From assembly GCA_016124195.1 (NCBI GenBank), contig WGOE01000006.1, positions 62,001-126,000 on the forward strand: a DNA stretch of 64,000 nucleotides, read 5' to 3'. The notes beneath the pieces were generated by a model. It worked only from the letters and a program-made list of their open reading frames with translations. It was not told where the DNA came from and searched no databases. A program made the position numbers and the translations under genes. Positions within the stretch are counted from its first letter, which is position 1; each line of letters starts with the position of its first letter. Below, in pieces: positions 339-62,713 of this stretch. The DNA comes from a bacterium. GTDB lineage: Bacteria > Pseudomonadota > Alphaproteobacteria > Rhodobacterales > Rhodobacteraceae.

Positions 339-3300
339 TCAGCCCTGCAAGGTGCGCACGCCATAGCCCTCGCCCCGGGCCTTCATCGCGGCGACAGCAG
401 CGATCGAGGCCGCGGCGGTGGTGAAGTAGGGGATCTTGTCCATCAGCGCCACGCGGCGGATGTCGCGCGAATCGTTGATGGCCTGGGTGCCCTCGGTCGT
501 GTTCATCACAAGGTCGATCTCGTCGTTCTTCAGGCGGTCGACGATGTTGGGCCGGCCTTCGTAGACCTTGGCGACCGGGGTCGAGGCCACGCCCTGCGCG
601 GCGAGCCAGGCCGTGGTGCCCTTGGTCGCGACAATCTCGAATCCCAGTGCGATCAGGTCGGTCATGGCAGCGGCGAAGGCCGGGGTCTTGTCCATGTCCT
701 TGATCGACACGAAGGCGCGGCCCGCCTCGGGCAGCGCCACGCCGGCGCCCATCTGCGCCTTGAGGAACGCCAGCGCGAAAGTGCGGTCCCAGCCCATGAC
801 CTCGCCGGTCGAGCGCATTTCCGGCCCAAGCACCGGGTCGACGCCCGGGAAGCGGGCGAAGGGCAGCACCGCCTCCTTGACCGAGAACCACGGCGTTTGC
901 GGGTCGGCGAGGGTCAGCGGGTCCATCAGGGGCAGGGGCGTGTCGGGGCCGACGCCCGCCGGATAGGCCGGACGCATCGGGAAGGCGCCCAGCTTTTCCC
1001 CCGCCATCAGCCGGGCCGCGATCGAGGCGATGGCGCTGTCGGTCGCCTTGGCCACGAAGGGCACGGTGCGGCTGGCACGGGGGTTGACCTCCAGCACGAA
1101 GATCACGCCGTCCTTGATGGCGAATTGCACGTTCATCAGGCCCACGACGTTGAGCGCCAGCGCCATCCGCACGGTCTGCGCCTTCAACTCCTCGACCGTG
1201 GCGGGGCTGAGCGAATGGGGCGGCAGGCAGCAGGCACTGTCGCCGGAATGGACGCCGGCCTCTTCGATATGTTCCATGATGCCCGCGACATGGACCGAGG
1301 TTCCGTCGGACAGGGCATCGACATCCACTTCGATGGCGCCGGAGAGGTAGCTGTCCAAGAGGACCGGGCTGTCGCCGGAAACCTGCACGGCGGTGGTGAT
1401 GTAGCGTTCCAGTTGCGCGTCGTCGCGGATGATCTCCATCGCGCGACCGCCCAGCACAAAAGAGGGGCGGATGACGAGGGGATAGCCCACGTCGGCGGCA
1501 ACTTTGAACGCCTCGTCGCGCGAGCGGGCGGTGCCGTTGTGCGGCTGCTTCAGGCCCAGCTTGTGCAGAAGCTGTTGAAAACGTTCGCGGTCTTCGGCGA
1601 GGTCGATGGCATCGGGCGTGGTGCCGAGGATCGGAATGCCTTCGTTGGCCAGCGCTTGGGCCAGCTTCAGCGGCGTCTGACCGCCGAACTGCACGATGAC
1701 GCCGTGCAGCGTGCCGTTTTCCTGTTCAACCCGCAGGATTTCGAGGACGTGTTCGAGGGTGAGCGGCTCGAAATACAGCCGGTCCGAGGTGTCGTAGTCG
1801 GTGGAAACCGTCTCGGGGTTGCAGTTGACCATGATGGTTTCATAGCCAGCCGCGGTCAGGGCATAGCAGGCATGGCAGCAGCAATAGTCGAACTCGATGC
1901 CTTGCCCGATGCGGTTCGGGCCGCCGCCGAGGATGACGACCTTTTTCGCACCCGAAGGCCGGGCCTCGCATTCCACGTCGCCCATGGCCGGCGCTTCGTA
2001 GGTCGAATACATGTAGGGCGTCTGCGCCTCGAACTCGGCGGCGCAGGTGTCGATGCGCTTGAAGACGGCCTTGACGCCAAGGTTGCGGCGCGCGCGTCTC
2101 ACCTGCGCCTCGTCCCGGCCGGTGAGGGTGGCCAGGCGGGCGTCGGTGAAGCCCATCATCTTGAGCTTGCGGATGCCCTCGGCCGTGACGGGCAGGCCAT
2201 TTTTTGCGACCTCGGCCTCGGTGTCGATGATCTCGCGGATGCGGGCGAGGAACCACGGGTCGAAGGCGGTGATGGCGTTGATGTCATCGTCCGACAGGCC
2301 GTGGCGCATGGCTTGGGCGATGTTGCGCAGGCGGTCGGGGGTGGCCTCGGACAGGGCCTTGGTGATGGCCACACGGTCCGGCGCGCCGGGGATGGCGATC
2401 TCGTCAAAGCCGGAGAGGCCGGTTTCCAGCGAGGCCAGCGCCTTTTGCATCGATTCGTGGATGGTGCGGCCGATGGCCATGGCCTCGCCCACCGATTTCA
2501 TCGCGGTGGTCAGGTTGGGGACCGAGCCGGGGAATTTCTCAAACGCAAAGCGCGGGATCTTGGTCACGACATAGTCGATCGAGGGCTCGAACGAGGCGGG
2601 CGTCACCTTGGTGATGTCGTTGTCCAACTCGTCCAGTGTATAACCCACGGCGAGTTTGGCGGCGATCTTGGCGATGGGAAAGCCGGTGGCCTTGGAAGCC
2701 AGCGCGGAGGAGCGGCTGACGCGGGGGTTCATCTCGATCACGACCATGCGGCCATCGGCCGGGTTGATCGCCCATTGCACGTTCGATCCGCCGGTTTCCA
2801 CCCCGATCTCACGCAGCACGGCGATAGAGCCGTTGCGCATGATCTGGTATTCCTTGTCGGTCAGTGTCAGCGCGGGGGCCACGGTGATCGAGTCGCCGGT
2901 ATGCACGCCCATCGGGTCGATGTTTTCGATGGAACAGACGATGATGGCGTTGTCGGCGGTGTCGCGCACCACCTCCATCTCGTATTCCTTCCAGCCCAGC
3001 AGCGACTCGTCCACCAGCACCTGCGCCATGGGCGAGGCTTCAAGGCCCGACCGCACGATGGCCTCATAGTCGTCGCGGTTGTAGGCCACGCCGCCGCCAG
3101 TGCCGCCCAGGGTAAAGGCGGGGCGGATGATGGCGGGCAGGCCCACGTAATCCAGCGCCTCGATGGCCTCGCGCACACCTGCGGAGATGTCATATTTGCC
3201 CGAGGCGAGCTTGGGGGCCGCGATGATGGTGGCCTTGGGGTTCTCCAGACCGATCCGGTCCATCGCCTCGCGGAAGAGCTTGCGGTCTTCGGCCATTTCG

Positions 3301-3668
3301 ATGGCCGCGCGCTTGGCGCCGATCAGTTCGACGTTGAACTTTTCCAGCACGCCCAGATCGGCCAGCGCCAGCGCGGTGTTGAGCCCGGTCTGGCCGCCCA
3401 TCGTGGGCAGAAGCGCGTCGGGACGCTCTTTTTCAATGATCTTGGCCACGACTTCCGGCGTGATCGGCTCGATATAGGTGGCGTCGGCCAACCCCGGATC
3501 GGTCATGATCGTGGCGGGGTTGGAGTTCACGAGGATGACCCGGTAGCCTTCCTCGCGCAGCGCCTTGCAGGCCTGTGCGCCGGAATAGTCGAACTCGCAG
3601 GCCTGGCCAATGACGATGGGGCCGGCTCCGATGATCATGATGGATTTGATATCGGTTCTTTTCGGCAT
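339..3668 (-). CDS. carB: Carbamoyl-phosphate synthase large subunit
   Basis: A 1109-residue protein, the usual CarB length in this group. It makes carbamoyl phosphate from bicarbonate, ATP and glutamine-derived ammonia for arginine and pyrimidine synthesis, in the cytoplasm with CarA. Two homologous halves are visible. Each has a pre-ATP-grasp nucleotide motif ([18 protein letters not shown] near residue 12; [15 protein letters not shown] near residue 590) and an ATP-grasp domain, with [20 protein letters not shown] in the first and [19 protein letters not shown] in the second. An MGS-like allosteric domain follows, from roughly residue 960. The start is set by GAGGAGG about 8 nt upstream of the ATG. 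carA is not adjacent, as is common in alphaproteobacteria. Confidence 0.97.
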
Positions 3669-3712
3669 CGTAGCCTCCTCTTTTCGGCGTCCGGCAGCGC
3701 AAAACTTCGCGG

Positions 3713-3740
3713 GTTATAGCCATGCGGGGCGGCGGCGCAA
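3713..3740 (-). promoter_or_regulatory. Candidate sigma-70 promoter of carB
   Basis: On the minus strand, TTGCGC (3740-3735) is followed after 16 nt by TATAAC (3718-3713). This would place transcription initiation near 3706 and give a leader of about 38 nt before the carB start. It was identified by eye only. Confidence 0.42.
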
Positions 3741-4080
3741 GGGGATTCCCGGCATGTGGTGATGCCGGCCCGCAGGGTGCGAGGCTTGCCTTGCAGATGG
3801 GGGGAAGGCGACTGGCGTGGCGCGGTCGAGGCAGAGGGAAATACCAGAGGGCCCGGACCTTCGGTTGAACGATGTCATGCTTTTGGTCCGCGACAGGGAT
3901 GTAAGTGCGGCGGGGCATGATAGATGGCCCGGCGCGCCGATGGCATCAAATTCTGGCATGTTCAGGACCCGGACGGCTTCTGGATCGGCGATAGACCGGG
4001 GTTTCTGACGCGCGTGTGATCCCCGGCCCTTGCCGATACCCTGCGACGCCAGGCTATTCGCGATTTGGTCCGCGCAAGGA
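3741..4080. other. Intergenic stretch upstream of carB without a supported gene
   Basis: Open frames exist on both strands (for example minus 4196-3714) but they lack a ribosome site, recognisable domains and a sensible start, so they look like GC-rich chance frames. I see no RNA gene here. The segment separates the carB promoter from the terminator of the permease gene. Confidence 0.5.
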
Positions 4081-4082
4081 AA

Positions 4083-4108
4083 CGGGCCGGAGGTTTCCCC
4101 CCGGCCCG
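4083..4108 (-). terminator. Rho-independent-type terminator of the APC permease gene
   Basis: CGGGCCGG (4083-4090) and CCGGCCCG (4101-4108) form an 8-bp GC stem with a 10-nt loop. Read on the minus strand it is followed by TTTCCTT. It lies 20 nt after the permease stop codon. The terminator at 39424-39445 has nearly the same design. Confidence 0.7.
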
Positions 4109-4128
4109 CTGCAGCCTTTGCGAAAGTC

Positions 4129-5688
4129 TCAGGCCTTTTCGCCCACGGCGGCTTCGGCGGCGGCGATGGCGGCCGCGCGACGCTTGACCTCGTCACCGAT
4201 CGGCGGGCCCTTGAAGCGGCGGTTTTCCACCAGGACCCACATCACCAGCGCCAGCGCGATGAAGCCCACGACGACCCAGAGCACGCGGTCATTCGGCGGT
4301 GCGACGGCGATGAACAGGATCACCGCCATGCCGACGACAGACAGCAGCGTCACCAGCTTGTAGGTGCCGGCCGACATGGCCCAGGGGCCGGGCTTCGGCC
4401 ATTTTGCGGTGCCGAAGGCAAAGAGACCGGCAACCAGCGGAACCGTGAAGGACAGGAACAGGAAGACCAGGGTCGAGTTCACCACGATGACATAGATCGA
4501 GGTTCCGGCGATCTTGATCGACATTGCGAGGATCACATAGAGGATGCACAGCACCGTGGCCGTCCAGATCGCCGCCACCGGCGTGCGGTAGGTGGGCGAG
4601 ACGGTCGACAGGGCCTTGGACCCTACCGGCATCCCGTCATCGCGCGAGAAGGCGAAAAGCATGCGCGAGGCCGAGGTGACGGTGGCCAGACCGCACAGGA
4701 ACTGCGCGATCAGGATGCCGACATAGATCGCCAGCTTCAGCCCCGAGGGCAGGATCGCATCCATCGTGGCGAAGAAGACGTTGAAGCCCTGCTTGGCGCC
4801 CGCATCCATGTCCGGAATGGCCAGCATGATCGCGCAGATCATCACCCAGCCGATCAGCGAAGACCACAGGACCGAAGTCACGATGCCGCGCGGCACCGAG
4901 GTCGAGGCGTTCTTGGTCTCTTCCGAGGTATGCGCCGAAGCGTCATAGCCGGTGATCGTGTAGACCGGCAGCAGCAGGCACAGCAGGAACAGATACAGCA
5001 TGTTGTCCGATTGCGGGAAAGTGCCGCCGCCCGCATCGCCCGAATAGTTGGTGAAGGTCCACAGCCGGCTGACATCGATATGCGGCGCGAAGACCAGGCA
5101 GGCCACGATCAGCACAGCCGTGGTCAGGAAGATGATATAGCCCGAGATATCGGTCAGGAAGGTGGTGATCTTGATGCCCAGATGGTTGAACAGCGCCTGT
5201 ACCGCCGTGATGGCGGCCACGAAGACCACGATCTGCATGTCCGTGCCGGTAAAGCCGAACGAGGCTCCGAAAGTGCCGGCAAAGTAATAGGCCGTGCCGA
5301 TGTTGATGGCGCCCAGCACCGTGATCAGGCCCAGAAGGTTCAGCCAGGCCGTCAGCCAGCCCCAGAACCGGTTGCCCAGGATCGAGCCCCAGTGATAAAG
5401 CCCGCCCGCGGTCGGAAAGGCCGAGGCGATCTGCGCCATCGACAGGGCGAACATGCCCGAAACGGCGCAACCCACGATCCAGCCAAGTCCCGCGCCCGCG
5501 CCGCCGACCGACCCCAGGGCCTGGGCGAAAGAGTTGATGCCTCCGGACAGGATGCAGATGATCGAGAAGGAAATCGCAAAGTTCGAGAATTTCGACATGG
5601 AGCGTGAAAGCTCCTGGGCATAGCCCATGCCATGCAGGACTTTGACGTCCTCATGGCGGTCCTTTTCGGTGTAGTCGTCCGCTGCCAT
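4129..5688 (-). CDS. APC-superfamily amino-acid/GABA-type permease
   Basis: A 519-residue inner-membrane protein with about 12 hydrophobic segments. It has an APC-superfamily start (a short hydrophilic N terminus, then LSRSMSKFSNFAISFSII) and a motif like GYDASAHTSEET, typical of the eukaryotic-like amino-acid/GABA/choline permease branch. It likely imports an amino acid or amine; the substrate is not readable from sequence. The open frame extends 46 codons further upstream, but I chose the ATG at 5688 because GGAGGGG sits about 7 nt ahead and the extension is polar and lacks family character. It is monocistronic, divergent from pabB and ends at the terminator at 4083-4108. Confidence 0.88.
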   Translation of the reverse strand: MAADDYTEKDRHEDVKVLHGMGYAQELSRSMSKFSNFAISFSIICILSGGINSFAQALGSVGGAGAGLGWIVGCAVSGMFALSMAQIASAFPTAGGLYHWGSILGNRFWGWLTAWLNLLGLITVLGAINIGTAYYFAGTFGASFGFTGTDMQIVVFVAAITAVQALFNHLGIKITTFLTDISGYIIFLTTAVLIVACLVFAPHIDVSRLWTFTNYSGDAGGGTFPQSDNMLYLFLLCLLLPVYTITGYDASAHTSEETKNASTSVPRGIVTSVLWSSLIGWVMICAIMLAIPDMDAGAKQGFNVFFATMDAILPSGLKLAIYVGILIAQFLCGLATVTSASRMLFAFSRDDGMPVGSKALSTVSPTYRTPVAAIWTATVLCILYVILAMSIKIAGTSIYVIVVNSTLVFLFLSFTVPLVAGLFAFGTAKWPKPGPWAMSAGTYKLVTLLSVVGMAVILFIAVAPPNDRVLWVVVGFIALALVMWVLVENRRFKGPPIGDEVKRRAAAIAAAEAAVGEKA

Positions 5689-5935
5689 TTGGTTACCCCT
5701 CCGAGCTTTCGGATCATGTTGTTGTTTTTGGCGGGGCTGCGACAAGATGTCGTGCCCTGCGCCAGAAAAGCGCTGATTTTTCAGTCTGTCCAGTACTGAA
5801 TAGAATTTTACAGAGTTGCGCGACATTTGCCCGGATTTTGCCTCTGCCCATGTCGTTTTCCGCGGGATTCCGGGCAGAACGCGGATGGCGCAAGCGCGGG
5901 TTCGGCTTTAAGCCAAGGGGATGGAGGCAGGCGGC

Positions 5936-7069
5936 ATGATCCTTGTGGAACAAGGTCCGAAGGGACAGGCAACCGTGTTTGACGGGGCCCTGGACAGGGT
6001 CGTGGCCTGGCAGGCTCACGAGGTCGGTCCGGCTCTGGCGGCGCTGGACCGCGCACGCGCGCAGGGCCACTGGGTCGCGGGCTGGATCGCCTATGAGGCG
6101 GGCTATGCGCTGGAACCCCGGCTGGAAGGGCTGATGCCGCCGCACCGGCCCGGTCCGCTCATCAGCTTCGGGGTCTTTGCCGGCCCGCAAGCGGCCGATC
6201 CGCTTTTGGCGCAGGCTCGCGCCGAGGCCGCGGTGCGCATCGCCCCGGTGGAACCCCTCGTCTCGCAAGCCGCCTATTTCGACGCCTTCGACCGGGTCAA
6301 GGCCTATATCGCGGCGGGCGATTGCTATCAGATCAACCTGACCTTTCCGATGCGCTCGACCCTGGTAGAGGGCACGGCGCTGGGCTTGTACGGCGCGCTG
6401 CGGGCCAAGCAGGCCGTGGGCTACGGGGCCTTCGTCGATCTGGGTGGCCCGGTCCTGATCTCGCGCTCGCCCGAATTGTTCCTGCGCACCGATGCCGCGG
6501 GTCGGATCGAAAGCCGCCCGATGAAGGGCACCGCCCCGCGCGACGCCGATCCGGTGCGTGACGCCGAACTGGCCGAGGAGTTGCGCGCCTCGGACAAGGG
6601 GCGGGCCGAGAATCTGATGATCGTCGATCTCTTGCGCAATGACATCAGCCGGATCGCCCGGGTGGGATCGGTCAAGGTGCCGGCGCTGTTCGCGGTGGAA
6701 AGCTATGCGACGCTGCATCAGATGATCAGCCGCGTGGTGGGCGAGATGGTGGCACCGCCATCGATGGCAGGGCTGATGCCCGCGCTCTTTCCCTGCGGCT
6801 CGATCACCGGTGCGCCCAAGATCCGCGCGATGCAGATCATCCGCGAAGTCGAACCCGAACCGCGCGGTGCCTATTGCGGCGCGATCGGCTGGATGGCGCC
6901 GGACGGGGCAAGCTGCTTTTCGGTGGCGATCCGCACGCTGACCCTGAACGGCCGGGCCATCACGCTCAACGTGGGCGGCGGCGTGGTGCAGGACAGCACC
7001 GCGCAGGGTGAATGGGAGGAGGCGCATTGGAAAGCGCGCTATCTGACGGGGCTTCAGACCCCGGGCTGA
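5936..7069 (+). CDS. pabB: Aminodeoxychorismate synthase component I
   Basis: A 377-residue chorismate-binding enzyme. It makes 4-amino-4-deoxychorismate from chorismate and ammonia, the first step of the p-aminobenzoate branch of folate synthesis. Visible signatures are YIAAGDCYQINLTFP, SPELFL, SRPMKGTAPR, LMIVDLLRNDISR, PCGSITGAPKIRAM and the C-terminal GGGVVQDSTAQGEWEE, all typical of the PabB/TrpE family. I prefer the ATG at 5936 with GGAGG 10 nt upstream; an in-frame ATG at 5921 is also possible. Its end overlaps pabC, so the two are probably translated together. The glutaminase partner PabA is not in the window. Confidence 0.94.
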   Translation: MILVEQGPKGQATVFDGALDRVVAWQAHEVGPALAALDRARAQGHWVAGWIAYEAGYALEPRLEGLMPPHRPGPLISFGVFAGPQAADPLLAQARAEAAVRIAPVEPLVSQAAYFDAFDRVKAYIAAGDCYQINLTFPMRSTLVEGTALGLYGALRAKQAVGYGAFVDLGGPVLISRSPELFLRTDAAGRIESRPMKGTAPRDADPVRDAELAEELRASDKGRAENLMIVDLLRNDISRIARVGSVKVPALFAVESYATLHQMISRVVGEMVAPPSMAGLMPALFPCGSITGAPKIRAMQIIREVEPEPRGAYCGAIGWMAPDGASCFSVAIRTLTLNGRAITLNVGGGVVQDSTAQGEWEEAHWKARYLTGLQTPG

Positions 7070-7650
7070 GGCTGATCGAGACGCTTTTGTGGGACGGCAC
7101 GGGCTTTCCCCGTCTGGGCCTGCATCTGGCGCGGCTGGAGCGCTCCGCCGAGGCGCTGGGCTGGCCCACGCCGCAGGGCGTGGAGAGGGCCCTTGCCGGT
7201 CTGCCGCCCCGCGCGCTGCGGGTCCGCCTGACGATGGACGTCATGGGCCGCTTTCAAGTCGAAACGGCAGACCTGCCGCCGGCCAAACCGCTCTGGCGCG
7301 TCGGGCTGGCGCCGTCGCGGCTTGATCCTGTCGATCCCTGGCTGCGGATCAAGTCCACCCGGCGCGCCACCTACGATGCGGCCCGGGCGGCCCTGCCGGA
7401 CGGGTTGGACGAGGTGCTCTTCCTCAACCGTCGGGGCGAGGTTTGCGAAGGCACGATCACTTCCCTGTTCTTCGACCGCGGCCAGGGACTGCGCACACCG
7501 CCCCTGTCCTGCGGCCTGCTTCCCGGAGTGCTGCGCGCCGAACTGGCCGCCCCCGAACAGGTCCTGCTGGCGCGAGATCTTCCCCATGTGCGGCTCTGGC
7601 TCGGCAATGCCCTGCGTGGCCTGATCCCGGCGCAATGGCTGGCAGGCTGA
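7027..7650 (+). CDS. pabC: Aminotransferase class IV, probable 4-amino-4-deoxychorismate lyase
   Basis: A 207-residue PLP enzyme of fold type IV. It likely removes pyruvate from aminodeoxychorismate to give p-aminobenzoate, directly downstream of and overlapping pabB by 43 nt. Visible features are RLIETLLWD at the start, KSTRRATYDAA carrying the PLP lysine, and LFLNRRGEVCEGTITSLFF, the usual E-G-T-x-x-N/S-like loop. The start is a judgement: the TTG at 7027 is preceded by GGGAGGAGG at good spacing and gives an N terminus (LESAL...) like relatives. An ATG at 7012 is the alternative and would add five residues. Branched-chain aminotransferase activity is less likely given the small size and the context. 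Confidence 0.85.
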   Translation: MESALSDGASDPGLRLIETLLWDGTGFPRLGLHLARLERSAEALGWPTPQGVERALAGLPPRALRVRLTMDVMGRFQVETADLPPAKPLWRVGLAPSRLDPVDPWLRIKSTRRATYDAARAALPDGLDEVLFLNRRGEVCEGTITSLFFDRGQGLRTPPLSCGLLPGVLRAELAAPEQVLLARDLPHVRLWLGNALRGLIPAQWLAG

Positions 7651-7699
7651 ACGACGACCAGCACGCCGCGATACTCTTTCTCTTCATCTGTTCAGAAAT

Positions 7700-7735
7700 A
7701 TCCTCGGGGGGTCTGGGGGGCGGAAAGCCCCCCAG
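7700..7735 (+). repeat. REP-like palindromic element, family A, copy 1
   Basis: The element has an ATATCCTCGGGGG lead followed by GTCTGGGGGG, a 7-nt loop and CCCCCCAG (stem 7713-7720 with 7728-7735). Related copies, with the same TACTC/TCCTC lead and GGTC(T/C)GGGAGGG stem, are at 14508-14548 and, inverted, at 24971-25009. It lies just after pabC, between convergent genes, and could also act as a terminator or 3-prime stabiliser. Confidence 0.6.
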
Positions 7736-7750
7736 CCGGGGCCGCGGCGC

Positions 7751-7780
7751 GCGCCCGTCCAGGCTGGCCTGGACGGGCGC
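7751..7780. repeat. Perfect 30-bp inverted repeat between convergent genes
   Basis: GCGCCCGTCCAGGC (7751-7764) and GCCTGGACGGGCGC (7767-7780) are perfect reverse complements separated by TG. The element sits 16 bp after repeat A copy 1 and 30 bp before the creatinase stop codon. It is probably a bidirectional terminator or part of the composite repeat; there is no T-tract. Confidence 0.6.
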
Positions 7781-7810
7781 CCTGCGATCCCGGCACCCCG
7801 GGACGGCGCC

Positions 7811-9022
7811 TTACCCCACCACGTTGAAGGCCGGGCCGTAGGGGTATTTGGTGATATCCTCGTTGCCCTCTTCGGTGATGACCAGGATGTCATGCTCGCG
7901 GTAGCCGCCCGCACCGGGCTGGCCCTCGGGAATCGTCAGCATCGGCTCCATCGAGATCACCATGCCGGGCTCCAGCACCGTGTCGATATCCTCGCGCAGT
8001 TCCAGCCCGGCTTCCCGGCCATAGTAATGCGACAGCACGCCAAAGGAGTGGCCATAGCCGAAGGTGCGGTATTGCAGGACCTGATGCTCTTCGAAAAATG
8101 TGTTGAGCTTGTGGGTCACCTCGGCGCAGCTTGCACCGGGCTTCAAGAGGCTCATGCCGTATTCATGGGCCGCCACGTTGATCTCCCAGATCCGGCGCGA
8201 GGCGGCATCGACCTCGCCCACAAACAGCGTCCGTTCCAGTGCGGTGTAATAGCCCGAGATCATCGGGAAGGTGTTGAGCGACAGGATATCGCCGCGCTTG
8301 AGTTTGCGCGCGGTCACCGGGTTGTGCGCGCCGTCGGTGTTGATGCCGGACTGAAACCAGACCCAGGTGTCGCGGTACTCGGCCTCGGGAAAGCGCTTGG
8401 CGATCTCAAGTTCCATTGCATCGCGGCCGGCCATTGCCACGTCGATCTCGCGCAGACCCTCGCGCACCGCCTCGCGGATGGCAAAGCCGCCCACGTCGGC
8501 CACCGCGGCGCCCTGGCGGATCAGTGCGATCTCGGCCGGGGATTTCATCATGCGCTGTTCCATCGACCCGCGCGAGATATCGACCCCGCGCTTGGGCTTG
8601 AGGAAAGCATTCAGCTTCTCCGATTGCACCAGCGTCAGGTGATCCGCCTCGCAGCCGATGACCCGGCCTTCTCCGGTCACCGAGGCCACCGCGCGCCAGT
8701 AATTGTCGCGCGCCCAATCGGTGTAGGTGATGTTGTCGCCATGGCAACGCCGCCAGGGCTGGCCCGCGTCAATGCCCGCGCTGATCGTGACAGACTGGGT
8801 CGGGGTGACGACCAGGCCATAGGGCCGGCCGAACGAGCAATAGAGGAAGCCCGAATAATAGGCGATGGCATGCATCGAGGTGAAGACGCAGGCCTCGATT
8901 CCCTGCACCTCCATCAACTCGCGCAGACCGGCGAGGCGGGCATCGTATTCTTCGGCGGCAAAGGGCAGGACGCGGTCGCCCTGATGAAAGCGGTACTGTT
9001 GCGGGCGGGTGGTGGCAGACAT
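7811..9022 (-). CDS. Creatinase (creatine amidinohydrolase)
   Basis: A 403-residue cytoplasmic enzyme, the same length as pseudomonad creatinases. It hydrolyses creatine to sarcosine and urea. The pita-bread C-terminal domain carries WFQSGINTDGAHNPVT (the catalytic His of creatinase lies in GAHNP), RGDILSLNTFPMISGYYTAL, YRTFGYGHSFGVLSHYYGRE and SMEPMLTIPEGQPGAGGYRE, which match creatinase rather than general M24 peptidases. The open frame runs 94 codons upstream, but the ATG at 9022 has GAGG 8 nt ahead and gives the family length. No creatininase, sarcosine oxidase or urease gene is near, so it stands alone. It is divergent from the RTX gene and convergent with pabC. Confidence 0.93.
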   Translation of the reverse strand: MSATTRPQQYRFHQGDRVLPFAAEEYDARLAGLRELMEVQGIEACVFTSMHAIAYYSGFLYCSFGRPYGLVVTPTQSVTISAGIDAGQPWRRCHGDNITYTDWARDNYWRAVASVTGEGRVIGCEADHLTLVQSEKLNAFLKPKRGVDISRGSMEQRMMKSPAEIALIRQGAAVADVGGFAIREAVREGLREIDVAMAGRDAMELEIAKRFPEAEYRDTWVWFQSGINTDGAHNPVTARKLKRGDILSLNTFPMISGYYTALERTLFVGEVDAASRRIWEINVAAHEYGMSLLKPGASCAEVTHKLNTFFEEHQVLQYRTFGYGHSFGVLSHYYGREAGLELREDIDTVLEPGMVISMEPMLTIPEGQPGAGGYREHDILVITEEGNEDITKYPYGPAFNVVG

Positions 9023-25048: not shown

Positions 25049-26206
25049 TCAGCCGCCGTTCTGGTATTTCTGGTAGAGATAGAAGCCCACTCCCGCCACG
25101 ATGGCGGCGCCGACCACCGCGAAGGCGATCTTCCAGGCGCTCCATGGCCGTTCGCCCTGCACCTCGCCGGTCTGGCCATTCACGAGGAACCGATAGCTCT
25201 TGCCACTGTACTTGTAGGCAGCCATCCAGACCGGCAGCAGGATATGCTTGAAGGTTTCGTCCGCATAGGTCGTGTCCACGCTGTCGATGCGCTGTTCGTC
25301 CCCGCCGATGTCGCGGCGCACGTCGTCATAGATCACGCGGCTCATCTTGACCTTGGCCACCTTGTTGCCCTCGACCAGGGGGACGGTATAGCCCTCGGCC
25401 TGAAAGCCTGCGAGGTAGTCGGGCGTGTAGGCTTGCAGGGCCGACAGGGTCCAGGGTTCCAGCCCGTCGCCGAGGCCCGACGGCAGCGAGGTCGAGGCGA
25501 TGGCCAGAACGTCGTCGAAATCGCGGCTGACCACCCCCGAGGCCGGATACCATGCCGTCTTTTGCACCTGTTCCTGACGCTGTTCGTTGCGGCCGTTCAC
25601 GTTGACGGTCACGGTACGGGTTTCGTAGTAATGCACGCCCTTGGCGCCGCGGTAGCGGCTGGTCGTCGCGGCATCGAAGGTCCAGTAGGGCACATAGATC
25701 CCGTTCATCGCCCGGCCGGCGCGGGTGAACTCCAGCAGGCGGTTGGGGGCGAACCACAGGCTGCCGAGCCAGGCGATAAGCGCCTTGCGCGCCGCAGGCT
25801 CGTCCAGCACGAAGGGGATGACCGCCTGCGGCTTGATCTTGCGTTCCGATCCAGTGTCGATGACCACGGGCGAGGCGCAGAACGGGCATTCGGTGGCGTG
25901 GGATGCGCCCTGAAACTCGACCACCGCGCCGCAGTTCGGGCACTTGGTCGAGCGGACCTCGGCCGTGGCGGTGGCGGGCAGATCGTCAGACAGTCCCTTG
26001 GCAAGGGGGTGTTCCTGAAAGGCCTTGGCCTTGGCAGGCTTGGCCCAGGGGCCGGCGCTGGCCTCGCCCTCGGGGGTGATGGTCTGTTCAAACCCGCAAT
26101 GGTCGCATTTCAGCACGGTCTGCCCGGGTGCATAGCGCAGTTCGGCGCCGCATTGCTGACAGGGCCAGCGGTGTTCTTCGCTGACAGCGGTCTTGTCGGC
26201 GACCAT
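25049..26206 (-). CDS. Double zinc-ribbon, tail-anchored membrane protein (YdjG-like)
   Basis: A 385-residue protein. Two zinc ribbons are visible: C16/C19/C34/C37 and C89/C92/C107/C110. A large middle domain follows, with YVPYWTFDAATTSRYRG and repeated aromatic beta-strands, and one C-terminal membrane helix (about residues 361-378) ends in YQKYQNGG. The design matches the zinc-ribbon membrane proteins that accompany SPFH proteins, such as Bacillus YdjG (family knowledge from memory). Only 3 nt separate it from the SPFH gene. It probably anchors the SPFH protein at the inner membrane. It is the last gene of the six-gene module. The biochemical function is unknown. Confidence 0.82.
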   Translation of the reverse strand: MVADKTAVSEEHRWPCQQCGAELRYAPGQTVLKCDHCGFEQTITPEGEASAGPWAKPAKAKAFQEHPLAKGLSDDLPATATAEVRSTKCPNCGAVVEFQGASHATECPFCASPVVIDTGSERKIKPQAVIPFVLDEPAARKALIAWLGSLWFAPNRLLEFTRAGRAMNGIYVPYWTFDAATTSRYRGAKGVHYYETRTVTVNVNGRNEQRQEQVQKTAWYPASGVVSRDFDDVLAIASTSLPSGLGDGLEPWTLSALQAYTPDYLAGFQAEGYTVPLVEGNKVAKVKMSRVIYDDVRRDIGGDEQRIDSVDTTYADETFKHILLPVWMAAYKYSGKSYRFLVNGQTGEVQGERPWSAWKIAFAVVGAAIVAGVGFYLYQKYQNGG

Positions 26207-26209
26207 GTT

Positions 26210-27328
26210 CTATTGCCCCGGTGCCGGCGGCGGCGGAGGCGGCGGCGGGGGCATGGCGGCGAAAAGCCGGGCGAGATCGGTCTCGGCGGCGGATTTCCAG
26301 CCATCCTGCCCGGCGGTCCAGACCATCGTGGCCCGCGTCAAGGCGCCGGAGGCCGCCATGGCGGCCAGATCGGCCTCGGCAAAGGGGCCCTTGGTCGCGC
26401 CGTTTTCGGCCAGATGCCATTGGCGCGCCACGGGCGGCGGCGGCGGTGCGGCAGGGGCTGCGGCAGGGGCCGCGCCCCAGGGTCCGGCCTGACCGGCCTG
26501 GGCGCCCATGTTGAACCCCATGCCCGCGCCCATCGCGGCGCCCATGGTGGCCCCCATGGCCGAATTCGGCTGGGCCAGACCCTCGGCCGCATTGAACTGC
26601 ATGTATTTGTTGAGATCCCCGGCAATCCCCATCGAGGTGCGCTTGTCGAGCACCTTTTCCACCTCGTCGGGCAGCGAGATGTTCTCGATGTAGAATTCGG
26701 GCAGCGTCAGTCCGTATTGCGCGATGGTGGGGGCGATGGCCGTATTGACCAGTTTGGCCAGATCGACCGTGTTGGCCGCCATGTCCAGCACCGGAATCCC
26801 GGATTTGGCCAGGGCCTGGCTCATCTGCTGCACGATCACGTTGCGGATCTGGGCCGAGATCTCATCCGAGGTGAATTCGCCATCGGTGCCCACCACCTCT
26901 TTCATGAAGACGCCCGGATCGGTCACCCGCATCGAATAATTGCCGAAGGCGCGGATGCGCACGGGGCCGAACTCCGGGTCGCGGCACATGATCGGGTTCT
27001 GCGTACCCCATTTGAGGTTGTTGAACCGGGTCGTGTTGACGAAATAGATCTCGCATTTGAAGGGCGACTGGAAGGCGTGGTCCCAGTGCTGCAGGGTCGT
27101 CATGATCGGCATGTTGTTGGTCTGCAACTCGTACAGGCCCGGCGAGAAGACATCGGCCAGCTGACCTTCGTTGATGAAGACCGCGGCCTGGCCTTCGCGC
27201 ACGGTCAGCTTGGCGCCGTATTTGATGGCGTTGTCGCGGCGTTCAAAGCGCCAGACCATCGTATCGCGGGTGTCATCCGTCCAGGAAATGACGTCGATGA
27301 ACTCGCCCTTGAGGAATCCGAAAACCAT
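26210..27328 (-). CDS. SPFH-domain protein with C-terminal GYF_2 domain (YdjI-like)
   Basis: A 372-residue protein. Residues about 20-240 form an SPFH/virion-core-like domain (IKYGAKLTVREGQAAVFINEGQLADVF, then LPEFYIENISLPDEVEKVLDKR). A Met/Gly/Ala-rich flexible linker (AMGATMGAAMGAGMGFNMG) and a proline run follow, then a GYF_2-type domain (about 302-356: RQWHLAENGATKGPF… WTAGQDGWKSA) and a poly-proline tail. There is no membrane helix, so it presumably assembles on the membrane through partners. GYF domains bind proline-rich peptides, and the protein's own proline runs could make it self-associate. It lies 27 nt after the DUF2927 gene and 3 nt before the zinc-ribbon gene. Confidence 0.85.
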   Translation of the reverse strand: MVFGFLKGEFIDVISWTDDTRDTMVWRFERRDNAIKYGAKLTVREGQAAVFINEGQLADVFSPGLYELQTNNMPIMTTLQHWDHAFQSPFKCEIYFVNTTRFNNLKWGTQNPIMCRDPEFGPVRIRAFGNYSMRVTDPGVFMKEVVGTDGEFTSDEISAQIRNVIVQQMSQALAKSGIPVLDMAANTVDLAKLVNTAIAPTIAQYGLTLPEFYIENISLPDEVEKVLDKRTSMGIAGDLNKYMQFNAAEGLAQPNSAMGATMGAAMGAGMGFNMGAQAGQAGPWGAAPAAAPAAPPPPPVARQWHLAENGATKGPFAEADLAAMAASGALTRATMVWTAGQDGWKSAAETDLARLFAAMPPPPPPPPPAPGQ

Positions 27329-27355
27329 GACTTACCTCCCTCCGCGTCTCGCGGC

Positions 27356-28297
27356 CTAACCTTCGCCGCCCAGAAGGCGGCTTGCAAGAGTTTGAACGAT
27401 GGGCCGCGCCTCGGCCTCGGTCATGCCGGGGTGCAGGGCGGGGTTGTAGAGGATGCGCAGCATCATTTCGTCCTGTTTGGTCAGCAGGGCGAATTCCTGA
27501 TCGTCGTTGAAGATCGAGGGATGGGCGGCGTTGCTGTCGTTGGGCAGGCCCATGGCCTGGGCCAGTTCCTCGTGGATGCAGGCCAGGCGCATCAGGTCGG
27601 GGTGTTCCGAGGGGATGACGGCCACGGCGCGGGTATAGGTCGAGGTCGCGTCCCGCGTCTCGGTCAGGACCTGGCAATAGGTCTGATCGTCCATGTTGAC
27701 GACCGAGTCGATCTGCCCCGCGGTCAGCCCGGGCATTTCGGCGTTCAGCGTGGGGGCCATGGCGGCGCGTTCATCCACGGTGGCGATATGGACCCAGAAG
27801 TTGGGCGCATCGTCATCCATCACGATGGGATGCCCCGTGACGCGCGCCAGACGCGCGAAATACGAGGTGACCCATGCCCTGTCGGTGGCGACCTGACCCG
27901 GCGGCACGGCAGCACCGATGATCAGCGCCACGCGGATCGGCTGATCCCAGCGTTGCAGCCGGATCGCGGCGGCACGGCCGTGGCGGGTGATCTGCCCGCC
28001 GGCATATTCTTCGTACAATGCGATCCTGAGGAAGTTTTCCGTCAGGTTGCGGTCGTTGAAGGGTTCGTCGGGCGGCGCCATTTCAGTGCGCAGAAGGCCC
28101 GTGGCCAGCAGGCCGGCCTGCACCTTGGCATAGTGTTCACGGATGGCGGCGCTGGCCGCGGTTTCGGGCCTTGCCGGGCTGGGATGCGGCAAGGAGGCAG
28201 TGGCGGGCTTTGACGGTGGCAGCGCCGCGCAACCGGCAAGCGCCAGCAGCGCCGCCATGGCGACCCGACCCAAGCCCAGAGCCAAACGGTGCTGCAT
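27356..28297 (-). CDS. DUF2927 lipoprotein
   Basis: A 313-residue lipoprotein. A signal sequence ends in the lipobox LALAGC, so the mature protein starts at Cys23. The mature domain resembles DUF2927: GRAAAIRLQRWDQPIRVALIIG, then DDDAPNFWVHI, and CIHEELAQAMGLPNDSN. The last looks like a degenerate metalloprotease helix (HEExxQ). The start codon overlaps the TelA stop by one base (TGATG), a translational coupling. The cellular location should be the outer leaflet of the inner membrane or the outer membrane. The role is unknown; its presence inside the TelA/SPFH operon suggests a periplasmic sensing or repair part. Confidence 0.83.
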   Translation of the reverse strand: MQHRLALGLGRVAMAALLALAGCAALPPSKPATASLPHPSPARPETAASAAIREHYAKVQAGLLATGLLRTEMAPPDEPFNDRNLTENFLRIALYEEYAGGQITRHGRAAAIRLQRWDQPIRVALIIGAAVPPGQVATDRAWVTSYFARLARVTGHPIVMDDDAPNFWVHIATVDERAAMAPTLNAEMPGLTAGQIDSVVNMDDQTYCQVLTETRDATSTYTRAVAVIPSEHPDLMRLACIHEELAQAMGLPNDSNAAHPSIFNDDQEFALLTKQDEMMLRILYNPALHPGMTEAEARPIVQTLASRLLGGEG

Positions 28298-29487
28298 CAG
28301 CCTTGCAACGCGCCCCCGATATTGTCGCCGCTGCCGGTGGCCTTGGCATGGGCCGCGGACAGCGTGTCGCGCAGGGCGCTCTCCATCTTGGCGAGTTCCA
28401 CCTCGGCCGCCGCACGCTTGGCCTTGCCCTCGTCGGCGATGGCGAGGCTTTCCTGGATCGTGGCGATCAGGGTTTCGTTGGCCGACTTCACCGCCTCGAT
28501 GTCAAAGACGCCACGCTCCATCTCGGTGCGCACGATCTTGTTGCTGTCCTGCAGGTTCTTGGCGTTCTGGGTCAAGAGTTCGTTGGTCAGGTCATTGGCG
28601 CCCTTGATCGCCTCGGCCGCCTCGCGCGAACGCTGGATGGTGACGGCCTGCGCCAGCTGGGTTTCCCAGAGCGGCACGGTGTTCATCAAGGTCGAGTTGA
28701 TCTTGCCCACGAGGCTCTTGTCGTTTTCCTGCACGAGGCGGATCGAGGGCAGCGACTGCATCGTGACCTGCCGGGTCAGTTGCAAGTCGTAGATCCGGCG
28801 TTCCAGATCGTCGCGGGCGGCGCGCAGATCGCGCAATTCCTGCGCCTTTTTCACCTGATCGTCGGCGGGCGCGGCCTGAACGGCGGCATCCAGCGCCGGG
28901 ATTGTTGTGGCATCAAGCTCTTTCAGCTTGGCCTGGCCCGCCGCGATGTAGATGCCCAGTTCGTCATAAAAGGTCAGGGTCTTGGCATAAAGCATGTCCA
29001 AGGCCTTGATATCCTTGAGCAGGGTCGTCTCATGCATCAGAAGGTTCTCGGTGATCTTGTCGATCTGACCCTGCACCTCTTCATAGCGCGCCATGAAATG
29101 GGCCAGCGGCGTGGCCGATCCGGTCAGCTTCTCCCACCACGACCGTTCGCGGTTCACATCCAGTTCATTGCCCGAAAAGCCGCGGATCGTGGTGACGATC
29201 TGGGCCAGCGAATCCCCGGCGGGCCCGACGTCCTTGTTCTTGACCCCGGCCAGCATCTCCTGGCTGATCACCTGCAGTTCGCCTTGCGCGCCTGCCCCGA
29301 ACGAGATGATCGACTGGGTGTTGGTCATGTCGATCTCGGCCATGCGCCTGGTGATTTCGGCGGCCTGCGGGGCGGGGGCTGCCTCAAGCGGGACAATCGC
29401 GGTGGTCGGCTCCGGCATGATGGCCTGCGTGACCTTTTCAACTTCGGCAAGAGCGGAGGAGGCCTGGTCGCGTACGGTGTCGGTCAT
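28297..29487 (-). CDS. telA: Toxic-anion-resistance (TelA) family protein
   Basis: A 396-residue, mostly alpha-helical cytoplasmic protein of the TelA/KlaA family. Its members were named for tellurite resistance but are more widely tied to membrane and cell-wall stress. Typical segments are SIISFGAGAQGELQVISQEML, WWEKLTGSATPLAHFMARYEEVQGQIDKI, LYAKTLTFYDELGIYIAAGQ, LTRQVTMQSLPSIRLVQEND and VPLWETQLAQAVTIQRSR. The frame is open for 14 codons more; I prefer the ATG at 29487, with GTGAG 7 nt ahead, over the ATG at 29493. It lies 75 nt after xpaC and is coupled to the DUF2927 gene. The XpaC-TelA pairing is common in bacteria (established). Confidence 0.9.
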   Translation of the reverse strand: MTDTVRDQASSALAEVEKVTQAIMPEPTTAIVPLEAAPAPQAAEITRRMAEIDMTNTQSIISFGAGAQGELQVISQEMLAGVKNKDVGPAGDSLAQIVTTIRGFSGNELDVNRERSWWEKLTGSATPLAHFMARYEEVQGQIDKITENLLMHETTLLKDIKALDMLYAKTLTFYDELGIYIAAGQAKLKELDATTIPALDAAVQAAPADDQVKKAQELRDLRAARDDLERRIYDLQLTRQVTMQSLPSIRLVQENDKSLVGKINSTLMNTVPLWETQLAQAVTIQRSREAAEAIKGANDLTNELLTQNAKNLQDSNKIVRTEMERGVFDIEAVKSANETLIATIQESLAIADEGKAKRAAAEVELAKMESALRDTLSAAHAKATGSGDNIGGALQG

Positions 29488-29562
29488 GGTCATCTCACTT
29501 GTCAAAGGCCCGTGCCGGGCAGGTGTCATGGAAATAGGAATGCCAAGGCATTTTGGCCAGCC

Positions 29563-30456
29563 CTAGGGTTTGGGCGGGCCTTCAAGTTTCAGCCGGTCGC
29601 GCAGGACCTGGATTTCCACATCCAGATCGGTGTGATCGTTGGACAAAAGTGCTTCGGTCCGGCTGGCGAAGTTGGTTTCAAGATCGGTCAGCAGGGCCTC
29701 GTAATCGGCGCGGGCCCTGGGGTCGCGGTTGGCCTTGTAAAGATCGGCGAACTTGGCCGTCGCATCGCGCGCGCTCATCAGATAGACCGACATGTATTTT
29801 CGCGCGGCGGTCAGGTCGCCGGGGTCGTTTTCGACCCGGCGGAACAGGTTGCGGGCGGTGGTGGCGAAGTGATCGACCCGGGCCTCGAGCGCACCGTCAT
29901 TGGCGCGCAGGATCGCGTCCTTCATGCCGGCCAGAAAGCCCTCGGCCTCGGTCACGGCGCGGGCGACGCGGTCGGTCTGGAAGCTGTCGATCCCCTCCAT
30001 CCCCTTGCCGCGCAAGGGGTCGGGGCCAAAGGCGCCCAGGTGCAGGGCCGCACCCAGCATGCCGAAAGCGAAAAGGATCAGCGGGTTGGCCTGCCAGCCT
30101 ACCGCGCTGGTCATCAGCGCGGCCCCGGTCAGCGCCGCGCCAAAGATCTTGCGCGGAATGGCCGGGCGGCGCGCGATCTTGCGGGCATCATAGGCGGCCT
30201 GGGCCTTGACGCCTTCACGTGTGAGCCACGCTGCCAGCACCAGAAGCCCCGCCGCGCCAAGCCCGGAAAACAGCGCCGCGGGTGTGCCGGCGAAGGCCTT
30301 GATCAGAAAGGGAAAGGGCAGAAGGAAGGCAAGATTGGCCCGCAGCATGGCCCCACTTGGTGGCGGGGCGGCCTCGACCACGGTGTGTTCGGTCTGCGGC
30401 TGCCCGGGTGTGGCGCCAGAGTTCGGGCTGTATTTGCCGACGATGCGCTGCGCCAT
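29563..30456 (-). CDS. xpaC: XpaC-like membrane protein (5-bromo-4-chloroindolyl phosphate hydrolysis family)
   Basis: A 297-residue inner-membrane protein. Four hydrophobic segments lie between about residues 37 and 140 (LRANLAFLLPFPFLIKAF; LFSGLGAAGLLVLAAWL; FGAALTGAALMTSAVGW; PLILFAFGMLGAALHLG). A cytoplasmic helical C-terminal domain with FLAGMKDAILRANDGALEARVD and TAARKYMSVYLMSARDATAKF follows, as in the XpaC family. The family name comes from an old screen and it is not a proven phosphatase. The start is the ATG at 30456, with a G-rich ribosome site 5 nt ahead. It overlaps the stop of a possible 27-codon ORF by one base. It is the first large gene of the module. Confidence 0.83.
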   Translation of the reverse strand: MAQRIVGKYSPNSGATPGQPQTEHTVVEAAPPPSGAMLRANLAFLLPFPFLIKAFAGTPAALFSGLGAAGLLVLAAWLTREGVKAQAAYDARKIARRPAIPRKIFGAALTGAALMTSAVGWQANPLILFAFGMLGAALHLGAFGPDPLRGKGMEGIDSFQTDRVARAVTEAEGFLAGMKDAILRANDGALEARVDHFATTARNLFRRVENDPGDLTAARKYMSVYLMSARDATAKFADLYKANRDPRARADYEALLTDLETNFASRTEALLSNDHTDLDVEIQVLRDRLKLEGPPKP

Positions 30457-30539
30457 CAATGCCCCCCGCCAAAGGCCACATAAAGCGTCAGCGCGCAAAG
30501 CACGGTGAAGGACAGGGTCTGAAGCGCTTTGGAGGACAT
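30456..30539 (-). CDS. Possible 27-aa membrane micropeptide leading the XpaC-TelA operon
   Basis: ATG at 30539, stop TGA at 30458-30456. The predicted peptide begins MSSKALQTLSFTVLCALTLY and ends VAFGGGH: a short polar N terminus, one hydrophobic segment long enough to span a membrane, and a glycine/histidine end. The stop overlaps the xpaC ATG by one base (TGATG), the same coupling seen at telA-DUF2927. The upstream AAAGAG is a weak ribosome site. It could be a real small membrane protein or a leader that sets xpaC translation. It is not otherwise recognised. Confidence 0.42.
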   Translation of the reverse strand: MSSKALQTLSFTVLCALTLYVAFGGGH

Positions 30540-30660
30540 GGTCAGGCTCTTTCAGACTGTTAAATCACGCAAACTATAGGGCAGGGGGGCAGGGCTGGCT
30601 ACTGAAACCCGTGTGAAAGGGTTCGGGAAAGGCCGCGAGACTTTCCCCCTTGCCCCAGTT

Positions 30661-61633: not shown

Positions 61634-62713
61634 ATGGCCGTCAGGAAAGAAGAACGTCTGTTGCGCATGGGCATTCTGGGCTGCGGCCCGATATCCCAGT
61701 TCGCCCATCTGGAATCGGTGCAGAAGGCGCGCAATGCCGTGCTCGCCGCGGTCTGTGACGCGGACGAGGGGCTGGCCAACCGTTTTGGCGCCTTTTACGA
61801 CGCCGGGCGGATCTATCTGGATTACGACGCGATGCTGGCCGACCCGACGGTCGAGGCGGTGATCATCGCAACATCGGACGCTTTCCACGTCCCTGCAGCG
61901 ATCCGCGCGCTTGAGGCGGGCAAGCATGTCCTCTGCGAAAAGCCGCTCGGCCTGTCGGTCGAAGAGGTGCTGGACCTGCGGCGCGCGGTGCAGACCTCGG
62001 GCAAGGTGCTTCAGGTCGGCCACATGCTGCGCTTTGACCCGGGCATCCAGTCGGCCCATGACTTTCTGCAAACCGAAATGGGCGAGATCCTGGCGCTGAA
62101 GGCCTGGTACTGCGACAGTACCGCGCGCTACACCAACACCGATGCCATCCAGCCTATGCCGCGGATCGGGACCCGCGCCGTCAAGCCGCAGGGCGACCCC
62201 AAGGCCAATCTCCAGCGCTATAACATGCTGGCGCATGGTTGCCATCTGCTGGACCTCGCCCGCTATCTGTGCGGCCCGCTCCTGTCGGTCCAGGCCCGCT
62301 ATCGCGAGAAATACGGCGCCATGTCCTGGTTCGTCGATGTCGAGTTCCAGAACCGCGCCTTGGGCCATCTGGACCTGACACTGGCCGTGCGGATGGACTG
62401 GCACGAGGGCTTCCAGATCTATGGCCAGAACGGCTCGATCACGGCCAATATCCTGAACCCGTGGTATTTCCGTTCCGCCGAGGTCGATATCTTCCGTGAG
62501 GCCGATGCCACGACCCACCGCGTACTGGGCGCCGATGGGCATTTCTACCGCCGCCAGCTGGAGGGTTTTGCCGATGTCATCCTGCACGGCCTGCCGATGA
62601 CGGGCGCCTCGGTCGAGGATGGTCTGGAATCGGTGCGCGCCATGGTGGCCGTCATGCGCTCGACTGAGACGGGCCTTCCGGTGCGGCTCGCCGATGCGAC
62701 GGGGGCGGTCTGA
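61634..62713 (+). CDS. Gfo/Idh/MocA-family NAD(P)-dependent dehydrogenase
   Basis: A 359-residue oxidoreductase. The Rossmann motif is MGILGCGPISQFAHLES, the nicotinamide site is HVLCEKPLGLSVEEV (EKP), and the catalytic-type His region is LAHGCHLLDLARYLCG. It likely oxidises a sugar, inositol or lactone precursor to a keto sugar. It is followed 1 bp later by a TIM-barrel isomerase/epimerase gene, a common pairing in polyol and aldose degradation. The substrate is unknown. Start at the ATG at 61634; GCGAGGGACC upstream is a moderate ribosome site. Confidence 0.88.
   Translation: MAVRKEERLLRMGILGCGPISQFAHLESVQKARNAVLAAVCDADEGLANRFGAFYDAGRIYLDYDAMLADPTVEAVIIATSDAFHVPAAIRALEAGKHVLCEKPLGLSVEEVLDLRRAVQTSGKVLQVGHMLRFDPGIQSAHDFLQTEMGEILALKAWYCDSTARYTNTDAIQPMPRIGTRAVKPQGDPKANLQRYNMLAHGCHLLDLARYLCGPLLSVQARYREKYGAMSWFVDVEFQNRALGHLDLTLAVRMDWHEGFQIYGQNGSITANILNPWYFRSAEVDIFREADATTHRVLGADGHFYRRQLEGFADVILHGLPMTGASVEDGLESVRAMVAVMRSTETGLPVRLADATGAV

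Follow-up and report, generated by a model that had tools for sequence, protein, structure and literature searches.

A conserved micropeptide-XpaC-TelA-SPFH-zinc-ribbon gene cluster that carries, in Rhodobacterales, a DUF2927 lipoprotein of predicted metzincin fold

We analysed a 64,000-nucleotide (nt) window of a Rhodobacteraceae genome (assembly GCA_016124195.1, contig WGOE01000006.1, forward-strand positions 62,001 to 126,000), focusing on a compact cluster of six minus-strand genes at 25049-30539. The layout of the cluster is exact to the base in the window sequence. It encodes a transmembrane (TM) micropeptide, XpaC, TelA, a DUF2927 lipoprotein, an SPFH protein and a double zinc-ribbon membrane protein (ZnR), as follows:

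30456..30539, minus strand: micropeptide of 27 amino acids with a single TM segment, MSSKALQTLSFTVLCALTLYVAFGGGH, read from the sequence
29563..30456, minus strand: XpaC (Halogen_Hydrol family; PF10112, E 2.8e-22)
28297..29487, minus strand: TelA, cytosolic (PF05816, E 2.2e-104; alternative start at 29529)
27356..28297, minus strand: DUF2927 lipoprotein with lipobox LAGC and Cys23 (PF11150, E 4.7e-62)
26210..27328, minus strand: SPFH protein (Band_7_1; PF13421, E 9.5e-102) with a C-terminal GYF_2 domain (PF14237, E 1.2e-16)
about 26282-26419, minus strand: the GYF_2 domain within the SPFH gene (PF14237, E 1.2e-16)
25049..26206, minus strand: ZnR, with one C-terminal TM segment as tail anchor (cysteine alignment and hydrophobic C-terminal segment)
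30573..30601, minus strand: promoter-like box pair TAGCCA ... CCTATAGT, a low-confidence feature 5' of the micropeptide, with similar pairs in relatives

The micropeptide stop and XpaC start overlap in a TGATG, as do the TelA and DUF2927 genes, and gaps of 27 nt and 3 nt separate DUF2927 from SPFH and SPFH from ZnR. A first-pass annotation, made from the letters of the window, had reported these frames, joints and gaps, together with a 75-nt gap between XpaC and TelA; all were recovered, the last being 75 nt if TelA starts at the ATG at 29487 and 33 nt if it starts at the in-frame ATG at 29529. Spacing and order suggest that the six genes are transcribed as one unit. Promoter-like boxes (CTAGCAA ... 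CCTAAGTT type) lie 30-65 nt 5' of the micropeptide in many Rhodobacterales, and a strict form of the pattern was found in 13 of 31 relatives, where shuffling gives an expectation of 0.05; the copy in the window fails the strict pattern, and we regard the boxes as a suggestive promoter-like pair.

Nearly all relatives fetched at the same locus, a few of which sit on short contigs, keep the order XpaC-TelA-DUF2927-SPFH-ZnR. The adjacent PF10112 and PF05816 genes are a true XpaC-TelA pair in the window and stand in the same order in these relatives. Linkage was counted in 299 genomes drawn at random from the phylum. Both TelA and Band_7_1 occurred in 22 of the 23 genomes of the same family, the 23rd having neither, and the two genes were no more than 2.7 kb apart in all 22. 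Six sampled genomes outside the family also had both, linked in none. Given complete linkage inside the family and none in the sampled genomes outside it, chance association of TelA and Band_7_1 is excluded.

Beyond the family, a class-wide sample contained XpaC-TelA-SPFH-ZnR without DUF2927 in three further alphaproteobacterial families (G138, G072 and G126). We then drew on a wider scan of 80 loci, with one genome per species and a diverse SPFH alignment as query, in which the same four-gene order recurred in Gammaproteobacteria (Thiotrichaceae, Granulosicoccus and Sedimenticola) and in Campylobacterota (Sulfurovum and Campylobacteraceae). With the micropeptide in front, the five-gene order is found in Rhodobacterales, Gammaproteobacteria and Campylobacterota, that is, in two phyla. 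In Bacteroidota, Planctomycetota, Gemmatimonadota, Verrucomicrobiota and others the SPFH gene lacks XpaC-TelA neighbours and is usually accompanied by ZnR. These distant SPFH members, many of them from metagenome-assembled genomes, nevertheless group in clades of their own. On the SPFH tree the three linkage states require 6 changes, compared with a mean of 41 after shuffling, so linkage is clustered and has seldom changed. The class-, phylum- and species-wide scans ruled out a genus-specific oddity: the two pairs that the first-pass annotation had seen joined form one conserved operon-like cluster, co-conserved far beyond the genus.

DUF2927 has a narrower history. Within the operon it is restricted to the Rhodobacterales clade of the SPFH tree; only in this order does it stand between TelA and SPFH, where it was inserted later. 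The lipoprotein does lie in the operon, as the first-pass annotation had it, but it is not core, and the core without DUF2927 is the wider arrangement. Among the loci collected, a divergent XpaC-TelA-SPFH cluster in one genome (L172 of G331, 5510-8314) has an SPFH protein barely detected by profile. It still carries a TM micropeptide before XpaC, MNPVLRSLGWLLLAAVIFIPSCIAIFN, so our counts may understate how far the association reaches.

Elsewhere the peptide 5' of XpaC is mostly 26-30 amino acids, sometimes longer, with a single TM segment and an end near the XpaC start. The Rhodobacterales consensus is roughly MSxxxLQKxAFxLLxxLxxxVxxGxLGGL; the Granulosicoccus peptide is MPKALQRVIGFFILLATVGMISCQAFLG and that of Sulfurovum MQKIFGFLFILLSAGFAVWYPLGKLVMG. 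Under a strict test, a micropeptide preceded 42 of 53 XpaC genes, compared with 0/54 for TelA, 0/79 for SPFH, 0/28 for DUF2927 and 43/515 for other genes. Across nine genus members, the ratio of nonsynonymous to synonymous substitution rates (dN/dS) was 0.31 in frame versus 1.3 and 2.1 in the shifted frames. By these sequence measures the micropeptide is a real gene under purifying selection, as had been supposed, and the XpaC-specific enrichment together with dN/dS rules out a chance open reading frame. The peptide was kept where DUF2927 was lost (L165 and L166), was not found in two Paracoccus loci that lost XpaC and kept TelA-DUF2927-SPFH-ZnR (L154 and L179), and has a counterpart of about 60 amino acids, also with a TM segment, before a second XpaC just upstream of the operon in four loci (L037, L110, L117 and L171). 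This pattern of retention, absence and doubling indicates that the micropeptide belongs with XpaC. Seven loci (L031, L032, L050, L075, L148, L152 and L157) have a gene for a TerC-family membrane protein immediately upstream of the operon; at least four of these also have a second TM micropeptide, of about 40 amino acids (MSKxTFYFSvxVLxxVExxQSGYxRKL...), between TerC and the first.

By inspection, XpaC has an N-terminal half with several hydrophobic segments and a helical, cytosolic C-terminal half. A TelA model (predicted local distance difference test score, pLDDT, 74) has long helices at 141-219, 222-338 and 344-399. Its best VIA-align match, to ClyA/HBL-type proteins, has Z 12.3, short of the 13 recommended for helical bundles; a sequence search against the PDB gave no useful match for TelA. 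In Listeria, a mutant of the TelA gene lmo1967 is reported to be more sensitive to nisin and tellurite (PMC12791056), and TelA and XpaC have been tied to tolerance of nisin and tellurite or bacteriocins (PMC12791056; PMC7864038). In R. sphaeroides, telA is among the chromosomal tellurite-resistance loci (PMC6955997). The last observation, with the TerC-family gene just upstream in seven relatives, would fit an operon dedicated to toxic-oxyanion (tellurite) resistance and related to the Ter systems. We consider this improbable: neither the window nor most relatives have TerC next to the operon, Listeria TelA is tied to nisin tolerance at least as strongly, and the wide conservation of the core is easier to reconcile with a general stress than with a rare anion. 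No TerD, TerB or TerY was found by Pfam among the operon proteins, the rest of the genome not having been searched for them. No paper in the literature searched contained both 'toxic anion resistance' and 'SPFH'.

The first-pass annotation listed the DUF2927 protein as a lipoprotein. Its lipobox bears this out; it is not anonymous, having a predicted metzincin fold with a substituted metal motif. An alignment of family members inside and outside the module shares the block CxxEExxQxxGxxND, and in the window protein EExxQxxGxxND occupies residues 243-254 in place of HExxHxxGxxH. A distant member (L048) has CIPHELAHGFGFAHSN at the same block, the canonical HExxHxxGxxH, and a sub-threshold matrixin match. 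The zincin fold was predicted from this motif before any modelling. An AlphaFold2 model (pLDDT 87) then gave matrix metalloproteinases (MMPs) and snapalysin as top Foldseek matches (best E 7e-3, probability up to 0.99) and aligned to MMP-7 with Z 12.0 and a root-mean-square deviation of 2.6 over 147 residues (VIA-align), supporting a metzincin fold at the level of prediction. In all 28 aligned module members the three metal-binding histidines are replaced (by E, Q and N) and the catalytic-type glutamate is invariant. DUF2927 is therefore probably a pseudo-protease, that is, a predicted non-peptidase binding protein; an unusual metal site is the less likely way to read the motif. A PDB sequence search gave no useful match for DUF2927, and we found no paper on it in the literature searched. 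Most family genomes also encode, at other sites with no TelA/SPFH context, a second, longer paralogue family (about 450 amino acids) with the same EExxQxxGxxND block (L051-L055, L060 and L077).

In the SPFH protein, a PPP-containing tail directly follows the GYF domain, as it does in 77 of the 80 SPFH proteins compared, which span many phyla. Since proline-rich ligands are bound by GYF domains, the tail is likely a built-in ligand of the protein's own GYF domain, within or between subunits; the GYF/proline contacts imagined for the module are plausible in that form. The nearest solved GYF_2 relative is Myxococcus AgmX (7z3c, E 1.7e-8). All zinc-ribbon Pfam matches of ZnR are sub-threshold, and its eight cysteines, in four CxxC pairs, are invariant in a 28-row alignment. 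In about a dozen Rhodobacterales a cytochrome b561-like gene lies on the same strand between SPFH and ZnR (for example, L033 4267-4791 and L076 8897-9499).

XpaC-TelA also occurs beside an SPFH protein in a phage. The 469-kb jumbo Sinorhizobium phage Phosso (L180) encodes adjacent flotillin-type SPFH, XpaC and TelA at 2500-6047, where neither ZnR nor a micropeptide was detected; here an SPFH protein and XpaC-TelA have been brought together separately. A viral scan with the phage TelA alone returned no relative, and on three viral contigs with TelA, XpaC-TelA was present and no SPFH was detected by the profiles used. On two viral contigs (L182 and L183) XpaC-TelA has partners other than SPFH, and in one bacterial locus (L069) the pair lacks an SPFH partner and adjoins a von Willebrand A protein (Pfam). 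If the Phosso cluster is a counter-measure, it could speak for the operon as a membrane-acting defence module that protects against phages or bacteriocins, as could the literature on bacteriocin tolerance. We think this very improbable. The locus is near-universal in the family, with no defence-island patchiness, and a known anti-phage system is not favoured, PADLOC having returned no match beyond one weak zinc-finger match for ZnR. In the window the operon is flanked by RluB upstream and by PurC and a carbohydrate kinase downstream, neighbours common to genus members; the locus is core chromosomal, not an island.

The absence of PspA noted in the first-pass annotation extends from the operon to the window's whole genome, in which PF04012 had no match. 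Localisation of Bacillus PspA and of the SPFH protein YdjI to the membrane requires YdjG and YdjH, and in B. subtilis YdjI acts with these two membrane proteins in placing PspA there (PMC8581546); xpaC-yaaN (TelA), yceC-H and pspA-ydjGHI all belong to the sigma-W envelope-stress regulon (PMC3498285). Our preferred reading, to which we give about an even chance, is that the operon encodes a PspA-independent inner-membrane stress and repair complex, an analogue of Bacillus PspA-YdjGHI. A role in membrane stress is favoured by the YdjI/PspA placement, by the shared sigma-W regulon and by the nisin and tellurite tolerance tied to TelA and XpaC.

We infer the interactions between the operon's products, and its physiological role, as follows; the envelope-spanning device pictured in the first-pass annotation is likewise hypothetical. 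XpaC, a polytopic membrane protein, would be assembled with or regulated by the 27-amino-acid TM micropeptide, and would recruit the cytosolic, long-helical TelA in the place of PspA. The structural searches did not tie the TelA fold to PspA, so it is gene context that suggests TelA as the substitute. The soluble SPFH protein would form an oligomeric scaffold beneath the membrane, anchored by the tail-anchored ZnR, and its GYF domain would be latched by the PPP tail of the same or an adjacent subunit. The DUF2927 lipoprotein could serve, in Rhodobacterales, as a periplasmic peptide- or ligand-binding sensor or adaptor, a part favoured by its modelled metzincin fold. The output would be tolerance of membrane- or envelope-disturbing agents such as tellurite, cationic peptides and bacteriocins.

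The main rival is that two functionally separate pairs share a transcript: XpaC-TelA(-DUF2927) would confer tolerance of toxic anions or peptides, SPFH-ZnR would organise membrane domains, and the joint order would reflect inherited co-regulation rather than one machine. It is possible, though in our judgement unlikely, and draws on TelA-free SPFH-ZnR pairs in Bacteroidota, Planctomycetota, Gemmatimonadota and several Paracoccus, on XpaC-TelA with other partners, and on the b561-like gene that splits SPFH from ZnR in about a dozen Rhodobacterales. Against it, the joint order and tight spacing are kept across two phyla and seldom change on the tree, and in a phage XpaC-TelA has been joined by another kind of SPFH protein. 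A single machine is favoured because the order is strict in two phyla, linkage in the family is 22/22, tree changes are few, the micropeptide goes with XpaC, the genome lacks PspA and the phage joins flotillin, XpaC and TelA.

Several observations count against a single PspA-independent complex. XpaC-TelA and SPFH-ZnR are each found without the other in many genomes, and some family genomes with the module also encode a PspA-family protein elsewhere. Two family members (G332 and G430) lack DUF2927 alone, which is thus dispensable. An ESCRT-III/PspA fold for TelA also gained no support: no such structural match was listed, and the ClyA-type matches were too weak to use. A bolder version of the inner-membrane complex would make it a further membrane-repair machine beside PspA and flotillin/NfeD, with the micropeptide an obligate XpaC subunit, TelA a functional equivalent of PspA/ESCRT-III and DUF2927 a dead-metzincin periplasmic sensor of peptides or damaged envelope; this we put forward tentatively and regard as doubtful.

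The widespread TelA and XpaC take their names from phenotypes rather than from a mechanism. Being coupled strictly to an SPFH scaffold, a zinc-ribbon anchor and a micropeptide, they gain a concrete working context and form part of a complex that can be tested. A micropeptide recurs as a selected gene in two phyla, and DUF2927 is assigned, by prediction, to the metzincin fold, its metal site being systematically replaced. Three uncharacterised families would thereby be tied to envelope stress at a locus near-universal in Rhodobacterales, an order that includes laboratory strains. The XpaC-TelA and SPFH-ZnR pairs are already known; the micropeptide and the putative pseudo-metzincin are components for which we found no description in the literature searched.

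The closest known system is B. subtilis pspA-ydjGHI (architecture in PMC11237479), which shares a membrane-stress context and, in one operon, a YdjI-like Band_7_1 SPFH protein with a double zinc-ribbon TM protein, ZnR being likened to YdjG by its architecture of four CxxC pairs and a C-terminal TM segment. The window operon has no PspA, and Pfam detected no TPM domain (YdjH-like) among its proteins; it therefore is not a member of the PspA-YdjGHI system, although it may work like it. XpaC-TelA and the micropeptide stand there instead, the SPFH protein ends in GYF and a PPP tail rather than a zinc ribbon, and a DUF2927 lipoprotein is added. Known XpaC-TelA pairs (B. subtilis xpaC-yaaN and yceGH, Listeria lmo1966-lmo1967, R. 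sphaeroides telA and plasmid RK2 telAB) resemble that of the window in having adjacent XpaC and TelA genes. No linked SPFH-ZnR has been described for the reported pairs, whereas the window pair precedes SPFH-ZnR and follows a conserved micropeptide. With metzincins (matrix metalloproteinases, snapalysin and karilysin) DUF2927 shares the predicted fold and the motif's catalytic-type glutamate and glycine, but their zinc histidines are replaced in the module's small lipoprotein. The GYF domain of AgmX (7z3c), finally, belongs to a gliding-motility protein, whereas here the domain is fused to SPFH and followed by its own PPP tail.

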